A stretch of DNA of 64,000 nucleotides from Thermococcus zilligii AN1 (lineage in GTDB: Archaea > Methanobacteriota_B > Thermococci > Thermococcales > Thermococcaceae). The translations under genes and the position numbers were made by a program. Each line of letters begins with the position of its first letter. The stretch's first letter is position 1. The DNA is taken from contig NZ_AJLF01000001.1 in NCBI RefSeq assembly GCF_000258515.1, forward strand, positions 992,001 to 1,056,000, in the 5' to 3' direction. The notes beneath the pieces were generated by a model. It saw nothing but the letters and a program-made list of their open reading frames with translations. It was not told where the DNA came from and searched no databases. Shown piece by piece: positions 3,776 through 6,260 of the stretch.

Positions 3776-3872
3776 GACTCCAACCGCCACAAAATGGTGT
3801 AAAATTTTGGTATAAAACTTTTCCGACGAAAGGGTTTTATCCCCCCAGCCAAACACCCGTCCGGTGATTAAG

Positions 3873-4919
3873 ATGAGGATCGAAAAGCTCAGGGAATTTA
3901 TGGAAGAGAAAGAGCTCGACGGGATTCTGATAACCCAGAAGCCCAACCTCTACTACTTCACGGGCTCCTCGCCGGTTCTCGGTGGCTACCTCGTTGTGAC
4001 GCCGGACGAGGCAACCTTCATAGTCCCGGAGCTTGAATACGAAGAGGCTAAAGAGACCTCGAAGGTGCCCGTTGAGAAGTTCAAGACCGGAAAGGAGCTC
4101 TACGAGAGGCTCTCCTCCTTCAAGCTCAGGAAGCTCGGAATAGAAGGGGGAACCAGCTTCTCCACAATACAGACGCTTAAGGAGAAGGCCAGCGTTGAGG
4201 ACTTCACGGCAGTGGATGACGTAATCAGGGAGCTCCGCATAATCAAAACTCCGGAGGAGCTGGAAATCATAGAAGAAGCCTGTAAGATAGCCGACCAGGC
4301 CATGCTCGTTGCCCTGGAGGAGATAGGCGAGGGCAAGCGCGAGAGGGAGATAGCGGCCAAGATGGAGTACGTCATGAAGATGAACGGCGCTGAAAAGCCT
4401 GCCTTCGACACGATAATAGCTAGCGGCTGGAGGTCAGCTTTACCGCATGGAGTGGCGAGCGACAGGAGGATAGAGCACGGTGACCTCGTCGTTATAGACG
4501 AAGGGGCGCTTTACAGGTACTACCACTCCGACATAACGAGGACGGTAGTCGTTGGCGCTCCCAGCGAGAAGCAGAAGGAAATCTACGAGATTGTTCTGGA
4601 AGCCCAGAAGAAGGGCGTTGAGGCGGCAAGGCCCGGGATTACGGCGAAAGAGCTCGACACCACAGTCAGGAACGTCATAGCGGAGTACGGCTACGGTGAC
4701 TACTTCATCCACTCCACCGGCCACGGCGTTGGCCTTGAGATACACGAGTGGCCGCGCGTTAGCCAGCAGGACGAGACGGTCCTTAAGCCGGGCATGGTGA
4801 TAACGATCGAGCCCGGAATCTACCTCCCGAAGTTCGGAGGCGTCAGAATAGAGGACACCGTGGTCATCACGGAGAACGGCGCTAAAAGGCTTACAAAGAC
4901 TGAAAGGGAGCTTATTTAG
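3873..4919 (+). CDS. pepQ: Xaa-Pro dipeptidase (prolidase)
   Basis: Cytosolic metallopeptidase releasing C-terminal proline from dipeptides, needed to finish peptide catabolism. It has 348 residues with an N-terminal creatinase-like domain (about 1-120) and a pita-bread catalytic domain. All five metal ligands are in place when counted from ATG 3873: Asp209, Asp220, His284, Glu313 and Glu327, the same numbering as the Pyrococcus furiosus enzyme. GGTGAT at 3863-3868 supports this ATG rather than the upstream GTG at 3864. The gene stands alone in its direction, followed by the convergent 31-residue microprotein gene. Confidence 0.95.
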
Positions 4920-4928
4920 GCCCAAAAA

Positions 4929-5024
4929 TTAACAAGCGTCTTCGGGCTTTAAGGTTTTCTTTTGAAGTTTTTCCCTCGCCTCGCGCTCAACAGTTATCAA
5001 CCACACGTACATGATCGGGGTCAT
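4929..5024 (-). CDS. 31-residue microprotein under TGM operators
   Basis: A 32-codon reading frame (ATG at 5024, TAA at 4931-4929) begins MTPIMYVWLITVEREAREKL and ends in ...KPEDAC. Evidence that it is real: a consensus ribosome binding site GGAGGTGAT (complement of 5030-5038) six bases before the ATG, a TATA-like element (complement of 5058-5068) at suitable distance, and two perfect TATCAC-N5-GTGATA operators around that promoter. The protein has a short hydrophobic N-terminus (MYVWLITV) followed by a charged helix, so membrane or protein association is possible. No family is recognised. It could alternatively be a translated leader of an RNA. Confidence 0.6.
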   Translation of the reverse strand: MTPIMYVWLITVEREAREKLQKKTLKPEDAC

Positions 5025-5028
5025 TGTA

Positions 5029-5045
5029 TATCACCTCCAGTGATA
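5029..5045. promoter_or_regulatory. TGM operator 1 (TrmBL1/Tgr site)
   Basis: Perfect TATCAC-CTCCA-GTGATA. This is the Thermococcales glycolytic motif, bound by the sugar-responsive regulator TrmBL1 (Pyrococcus) or Tgr (Thermococcus). It overlaps the Shine-Dalgarno sequence of the microprotein gene and the expected transcription start (about 25 bp downstream of the TATA at 5058-5068), a position that in this regulon goes with repression. Confidence 0.85.
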
Positions 5046-5080
5046 CATAGGTTTCCACCTTTAAAAACCTTTCGCTTATG

Positions 5081-5097
5081 TATCACCGCGAGTGATA
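5081..5097. promoter_or_regulatory. TGM operator 2 (TrmBL1/Tgr site)
   Basis: Perfect TATCAC-CGCGA-GTGATA, centred 52 bp from operator 1. For the minus-strand microprotein it lies upstream of the TATA box, the position seen in activated TGM promoters. For the plus strand it abuts the TATAAAAA box at 5096-5103 that would serve the pelota gene. It may therefore act on both directions. Confidence 0.82.
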
Positions 5098-5186
5098 TAA
5101 AAAAACCAATGGGCCTGTCCCGGGGGACAAAGGATAAAACTCCACCCGCGTATTACTGCAGGGCTTGAGGGCGATGAGGTGATACC

Positions 5187-6260
5187 ATGGAGATAATCGA
5201 GGAGAACGTCAAGGAGGGCAAGATAAAGGTCAAGGCCGAAACTTTGGACGACCTCTGGCACCTCTACCACATAATAGACCCGGGGGACACTGTTTACGCT
5301 AAAACCCTCCGCAAGCAGAGCCAGAGGAGCGATTCCCTGAGGGCGGAGAAGGTTGAGGCCATTCCGGTTTTCCTCGGGGTTAAAGCGGAAAAGATAAACT
5401 TCCACAGGTTCGCCAACCAGGTTCGAGTCACCGGGCCAATTGTTTATGCGAGCAGGGAGGATGTCCCCCTCGGCAAGTACCACACGATAGCGATTGAAGA
5501 AGGAACGGTTGTAACCATTGAGAAGCCCCGCTGGAAGGAGCACCACTTAGAGCGCCTTAAGGAGGCAGTTGAGGCGTCAAAGAGGGCAAGGGTGATGATA
5601 GTGGTTATCGACGATGGGGAGGCAGACATGGCGCTGGTGAGGGAGTACGGCGTTGAGGTACTCAGCAGCACGTCCCATAACCTCGGCGGGAAGCGCTACG
5701 ACACGGACAGGGAAAGCGAGGAGAAGAGGTTCTTCCACGACCTGGCAAAGACAATGGAGGAGGTTATGAACCGGGAAAGGGTCGAGAAGGCTATCGTGGC
5801 AGGCCCCGGCTTCGTCAAGGAGACCTTTTACAGGTTCCTGCAGGAAAACTACCCGGAGCTCGCAAAGAAGGTCGTTGTAGAGGACACGAGCGTGACGGGG
5901 AGGACCGGCATCTACGAGGTCATCAGGCGCGGAACTGTGGAGAAGGTCTACCACGAGAACAGGGTTGCAAAGGAAGTCCAGTTAGTCGAGAAGGTTCTGG
6001 AGAACATAGCCAAAAACAGCGGCTTAGCGGCGTACGGCCTCAGGGAGGTGGAGGAAGCTGTAAACTACGGTGCGGTGGAGACGCTCCTCGTTTTGGACGA
6101 ACTCCTCAAAGGGGAGCAGAGGGAGAAGGTAGAGGGGCTGATGGAGGCTGTCAGGTATTCGCGCGGCGAAGTGGTGGTCGTAAGCTCGGAGCATGAAGGG
6201 GGCGAGAAGCTGAAGGCACTGGGCGGTTTGGCGGCCCTGCTGAGGTTCAGGGTGAAGTGA
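5187..6260 (+). CDS. pelA: Pelota, mRNA surveillance protein
   Basis: Release-factor-like protein (357 residues) that recognises stalled ribosomes with an empty A site and, with the archaeal aEF1A-GTP complex and ABCE1, splits them for no-go or nonstop decay. The three domains are visible: an N-terminal Sm-like domain (to about residue 130, with DPGDTVYAKTLRK and SLRAEKVEAI), a central eRF1-like domain (about 131-250, KRYDTDRESEEKRFF) and a C-terminal L7Ae-like domain (251 to end, YGLREVEEAVNYGAVETLLVLD). The GGQ motif of true release factors is absent, as expected for pelota. The start is ATG 5187 after GAGGTGATACC. The promoter may share TGM operator 2. Confidence 0.95.
   Translation: MEIIEENVKEGKIKVKAETLDDLWHLYHIIDPGDTVYAKTLRKQSQRSDSLRAEKVEAIPVFLGVKAEKINFHRFANQVRVTGPIVYASREDVPLGKYHTIAIEEGTVVTIEKPRWKEHHLERLKEAVEASKRARVMIVVIDDGEADMALVREYGVEVLSSTSHNLGGKRYDTDRESEEKRFFHDLAKTMEEVMNRERVEKAIVAGPGFVKETFYRFLQENYPELAKKVVVEDTSVTGRTGIYEVIRRGTVEKVYHENRVAKEVQLVEKVLENIAKNSGLAAYGLREVEEAVNYGAVETLLVLDELLKGEQREKVEGLMEAVRYSRGEVVVVSSEHEGGEKLKALGGLAALLRFRVK

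Follow-up and report, generated by a model that had tools for sequence, protein, structure and literature searches.

A probable 31-codon microgene of the glycolytic regulon with its promoter between two perfect TGM operators in Thermococcus zilligii

Upstream of the pelota gene of Thermococcus zilligii AN1, the stretch of DNA analysed here (64,000 nucleotides; hereafter, the window) carries two perfect palindromic TGM operators (TATCAC-N5-GTGATA) whose centres lie 52 bp apart, with the core promoter of a 31-codon open reading frame (ORF) between them. The ORF is very probably a gene, given the conservation of its frame as a protein, and its place as a new member of the known glycolytic (TGM) regulon is well supported by the sequence features described below. 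Taking the account as a whole, we consider it reasonably probable that this is a genuine microgene of the regulon, whose two operators are both bound by the TrmB-family regulator TrmBL1/Tgr in a bridged, repressing arrangement that is released by sugar. With this locus, the best-studied carbon regulon of archaea gains a microprotein that is conserved and probably unannotated, as well as a natural promoter in which two perfect operators keep a fixed helical distance. Two ideas thereby become testable in archaea, namely that an oligomerising TrmBL1/Tgr acts through two sites at once and that sugar-responsive small proteins tune metabolism. Small proteins of the latter kind are known in bacteria; we know of none in the Thermococcales.

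Two operators around one core promoter

The preliminary description of this DNA had reported two perfect sites, 52 bp apart, on both sides of the promoter of a tiny gene with a consensus Shine-Dalgarno (SD) sequence, a view that both the sequence and the conservation of the frame support. A motif scan of the window confirmed the two sites as perfect 12/12 palindromes (positions 5029-5045 and 5081-5097). Such sites occur far above chance when the chance rate is computed from the half-site frequencies in the window, with 2 observed vs. 0.004 expected in the window and 3 observed vs. 0.11 (~0.1) expected in the 1.76 Mb genome, and the odds of another perfect TGM within 52 bp of a given one are about 6e-6. 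The right half of the downstream TGM (GTGAT) doubles as SD sequence and thus partly comes for free; the expectation for GAGGTGATA with an in-register TATCAC before it is still only ~0.03 per genome.

On the minus strand, the promoter elements, as read from the sequence, follow each other in the order of a BRE-like GCGAAAGG (about 5068-5075), a TATA-box-like TTTTTAAA immediately below it (5067-5060), 14 nt, the downstream TGM (TATCACTGGAGGTGATA on this strand; 5029-5045), which contains the consensus SD GGAGGTGAT (5030-5038), and the ATG at 5024 of the ORF MTPIMYVWLITVEREAREKLQKKTLKPEDAC, whose TAA stop ends at 4929. An in-frame TGA 9 nt upstream of the ATG closes the frame, and the ORF (4929-5024) therefore cannot be extended. 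Archaeal transcription generally starts ~25 nt below the TATA box, which puts the predicted start of the microgene inside the downstream TGM. Consequently, this operator is predicted to cover both the transcription start and the SD, in line with the original description, and the other one (5081-5097) lies upstream and adjoins the BRE. A TGM downstream of BRE/TATA is the layout also of this genome's glycolytic genes.

The downstream TGM with its embedded SD is perfect and identical in each of the four carriers of the ORF (the window genome, G000, and G036, G007, and G022), and its distance from the TATA-like element is the same in G022. The upstream TGM is perfect in G000, G036, and G007 (the close trio) and absent in G022; hence, it is not essential to the unit. 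Within the trio, the N5 spacer of the upstream TGM varies (TCGCG vs. TTGTG) and the centre-to-centre spacing is constant at 52 bp (3/3 genomes with both operators), which corresponds to approximately five turns of B-DNA. Across 94 Thermococcaceae genomes, a search limited to perfect TGM pairs 22-52 bp apart recovered only these three promoters, and no second TGM (<=2 mismatches) was found within the roughly 1.5 kb around each of the remaining TGM loci in the window genome. Pairs of operators that are not both perfect may occur in other places, as L230 (G133:C2:89600-91000) suggests; here, divergent sugar genes have between them two neighbouring TGM-like sites, one of them perfect and the other with one mismatch.

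Another 15 TGM positions (<=1 mismatch) occur in the window genome, and most of them front sugar genes according to products read by eye, i.e., enolase, triosephosphate isomerase (TPI), ADP-dependent sugar kinase, phosphosugar mutase, glucan phosphorylase, aldolase/phosphatase, glycoside hydrolases (amylases), and a sugar-binding lipoprotein. The TrmB effector domain is present in two proteins of the genome. One of them, the candidate regulator, has 341 aa from its likely start, the Pfam domains TrmB and Regulator_TrmB, and Tyr49-Asp50, and its gene shares a contig with the TGM-fronted gene of an apparent sugar-binding protein; the other, of 338 aa, is encoded beside an ABC ATPase gene, where one would expect TrmB. 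The length of TrmBL1/Tgr and its DNA-contact residues Tyr49-Asp50 are tabulated in PMC4158304, and the likeness of the candidate to PF0124/TK1769 is drawn from these tabulated features.

The locus thus resembles the glycolytic regulon of the Thermococcales (Tgr in T. kodakarensis, TrmBL1 in P. furiosus) in having a perfect TGM that immediately follows BRE/TATA and covers the predicted start, and a 341-aa TrmB-family regulator encoded in the same genome, but it differs in that the target is a 31-residue protein instead of an enzyme or transporter and in the two operators around one promoter. SecG is a small protein, and the earlier view that established TGM targets include no small protein was too strong. 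Specifically, the TrmBL1 targets identified by ChIP-seq in P. furiosus include secG (PF2016) and the hypothetical PF1085.1n (PMC4706686), non-classical targets that also have the TGM downstream of the promoter, and for which no homology to the microprotein is claimed.

Proposed regulation and the role of the upstream operator

In P. furiosus, a TGM downstream of BRE/TATA leads to repression and one upstream to activation in vitro, and TrmBL1 occupies its sites under gluconeogenic growth, with no enriched site under glycolytic growth (PMC4706686); the protein assembles into tetramers/octamers (PMC4158304). If TrmBL1 is on its sites only when sugar is absent, both operators of the microgene should be filled or empty together and, when they are filled, the downstream TGM should repress. 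By analogy with these characterised TGM promoters, from which we infer the binding, the direction of regulation, and the inducer at the microgene, repression in gluconeogenesis that is released by maltodextrins appears to be the likeliest logic. Specifically, Tgr/TrmBL1 would bind both operators while the cells grow on peptides or other substrates of gluconeogenesis, and the downstream operator, lying over the predicted start and the SD, would block RNA polymerase. The upstream operator, 52 bp or about five helical turns off and hence on the same DNA face, would allow the oligomeric regulator to grip the promoter from both sides, which would tighten the repression. Once maltodextrins or related sugars become available, the regulator would leave, and the 31-residue helical protein would be made alongside the sugar-uptake and glycolytic enzymes.

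Since TrmBL1 oligomerises and the two sites are on one face of the DNA, bridging would be the simplest role for the upstream site. We infer this bridging only from the spacing, as observed in three related genomes that probably inherited it from one ancestral promoter. If bridging is true, the twin-TGM promoter would represent an archaeal counterpart of bacterial dual-operator repression.

Alternatively, the upstream TGM might serve mainly the divergent neighbour, pelota (5187-6260, plus strand; an archaeal release factor homologue for ribosome rescue, Pfam eRF1_1/2/3), and activate it in gluconeogenic growth, with the downstream TGM independently repressing the microgene, that is, two opposite outputs from the same region. 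We regard this as a real but minor possibility. The upstream TGM precedes the apparent TATA box of pelota (GATAAAAC, 5133-5140, plus strand; read from the sequence and conserved in G036 and G007) by ~35 bp, a distance within the range of activating TGMs (up to 156 bp), and the operator was maintained in the three genomes though its N5 spacer changed. Further, the PF1538-PF1535/PF1539 region of P. furiosus has been proposed to undergo repression in one direction and activation in the other (PMC4706686); this region, like the window locus, where binding is predicted, has TrmBL1 binding between oppositely transcribed genes, but at the window locus two operators enclose the core promoter of the microgene. 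On the other hand, the upstream TGM is much closer to the microgene's own BRE/TATA, and its distance to pelota shifts by ~20 bp between G000 and G036/G007, whereas the spacing of the two operators is constant. Among the pelota upstream regions listed for other relatives, the trio excepted, no TGM was found, and there is no obvious need for carbon control of pelota. We therefore favor bridged repression of the microgene as the main role of the upstream operator, an effect on pelota being possible from the arrangement of the elements.

It is unlikely, in our view, that the upstream TGM truly activates the microgene and that sugar state toggles the promoter between an activated and a repressed condition, as the preliminary description had proposed. 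TGMs on the upstream side of BRE/TATA do activate in vitro, but TrmBL1 is on its sites only in the gluconeogenic state (PMC4706686), so the two operators would fill together and the downstream one would block the recruitment of polymerase. A switch of this kind would need very different affinities or a second regulator, and both sites are perfect.

Conservation and predicted structure of the 31-codon frame

Loss of the frame in relatives had been named at the outset as a result that would speak against a gene, and we found the frame kept: the ORF is intact in the gap between pepQ and pelota of four Thermococcus genomes (G000, G036, G007, and G022). The peptides of G036 and G007 are 93% and 87% identical, respectively, to that of the window, and dN is lower than dS within the trio, on few changes (G036 and G007 differ by 1 synonymous and 2 nonsynonymous codons, so that dN/dS rests on very few changes). 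The G022 copy (a Thermococcaceae metagenome-assembled genome (MAG), JASGLT010000003), MSVSVAYVWLLAREREAMEELRERRKKPSVREDY, is 42% identical, and its local alignment to the window peptide reaches z = 10.6 over shuffles. Over a 22-codon core, 27/66 nucleotides differ between the two copies, and the BLOSUM62 score is 65 in the coding frame vs. <=23 in the five other frames; of 20,000 runs of random mutation, ~6,600 gave sequences free of stop codons, and 0 of these reached the observed score, with unweighted random substitutions serving as a simple neutral null. That is, the frame is conserved as a protein across divergent genomes.

The family is narrow, with carriers making up 4/94 Thermococcaceae genomes, three of them close relatives, and a profile search found no more carriers among the 94 Thermococcaceae genomes or among 115 genomes of the class. 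Weak, partial profile matches in G127, G010, G024, and G043 (E about 0.01-0.07 for a single genome over 94 genomes) were attributed to chance. The microprotein had no match in Pfam and NCBIfam up to E = 10, and its best match among PDB sequences (E = 0.78) was likewise taken as chance.

A reading in which the operators are real but serve a small non-coding RNA or decoy whose 31-codon frame is incidental is very improbable. The very short frame, its narrow distribution, and the lack of a family match in Pfam, NCBIfam or PDB would all fit this reading, but the protein-level conservation to G022 goes far beyond neutral, the SD and the start codon are conserved, and a known RNA or structured leader was rejected based on the lack of an Rfam match and a predicted RNA fold whose stability did not exceed that of shuffled sequences (z = -0.11).

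For the protein product that we favor, AlphaFold2 (run on a two-sequence alignment) predicts a single helix over residues 2-24 (mean pLDDT 81, pTM 0.40), hydrophobic on its N-terminal side and charged on its C-terminal side, a model that says little on the function of the microprotein. It is speculative that the peptide works as a small, helical binding partner for a protein of sugar metabolism or transport; SgrT in enterobacteria provides the comparison case for a peptide acting on sugar transport. Tentative and rather doubtful is the fuller proposal of an undescribed Thermococcus microprotein family, induced by sugar through an oligomeric TrmBL1/Tgr that bridges two operators, with a peptide acting on a sugar-transport or glycolytic protein.

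Occupants of the pepQ-pelota gap and a second microgene

The convergent neighbour of the microgene encodes a Xaa-Pro dipeptidase/prolidase of family M24 (pepQ; 3864-4919, plus strand; Pfam Peptidase_M24 and Creatinase_N) with 9 bp between its end and the stop of the microgene. Only ~60 bp separate pepQ and pelota in many Thermococcus genomes, and in others the gap is filled by a ParE/RelE-like toxin gene with its probable partner, by a lone antitoxin-like ORF, or by a different two-ORF insert; hence, the gap seems prone to insertions, with the microgene as one of its several alternative occupants. The pelota tree, considered for one gain vs. transfer, has mostly unsupported forks. A degenerate toxin-antitoxin remnant was rejected as an origin of the microgene, given that the ParE/RelE-like pair in the gap of relatives is on the other strand and unlike the microgene ORF, and so was a mobile origin, with no relative found in viral contigs or plasmids.

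The ParE/RelE-like toxin gene with a small probable antitoxin occurs at L016 (G013; Pfam ParE_toxin, E = 4.5e-10), L022 (G027), L036 (G020), L047 (G060), L064 (the second copy in G051), and others, and the antitoxin-like ORF alone at L014, L020, L026, L042, and L044; it is striking that a gene for ribosome rescue should have a possible toxin gene as its neighbour. At L024, L035, L037, L043, and L060, a gap of ~770 bp holds two conserved ORFs (~68 and 135 aa), the larger of which had no Pfam match above the cut-off. There are apparently two pelota copies in G051 (L010 and L064, on two contigs), 91% and 90% identical to the window copy and with different upstream gaps, which may reflect a strain mixture (an assembly of 90 contigs).

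Finally, a second TGM-linked microgene is present at a different locus in G005 (contig C92, JALSNG010000092; L236, about 4147-4271, minus strand) and G039 (JAGHBN010000018; L161, G039:C82:9453-9577, minus strand), where a perfect TGM that carries the SD within it (TATCACTGGAGGTGATA or TATCACTAGAGGTGATA) is followed by a conserved ORF of 34-35 codons. Its 34-aa peptide, MPEAVVDGSVAL.W.QAE...RPRWPD, differs from that of the window, and we claim no homology between the two (z between -0.6 and 3.6). A PIN-domain (VapC) N-terminus, which the segment VVDGSVALRW had brought to mind, found no Pfam match and no support. The G005 and G039 peptides are 68% identical to each other, in frame, with dN lower than dS, and, judging by this parallel case, microgenes under TGM control may have originated repeatedly.
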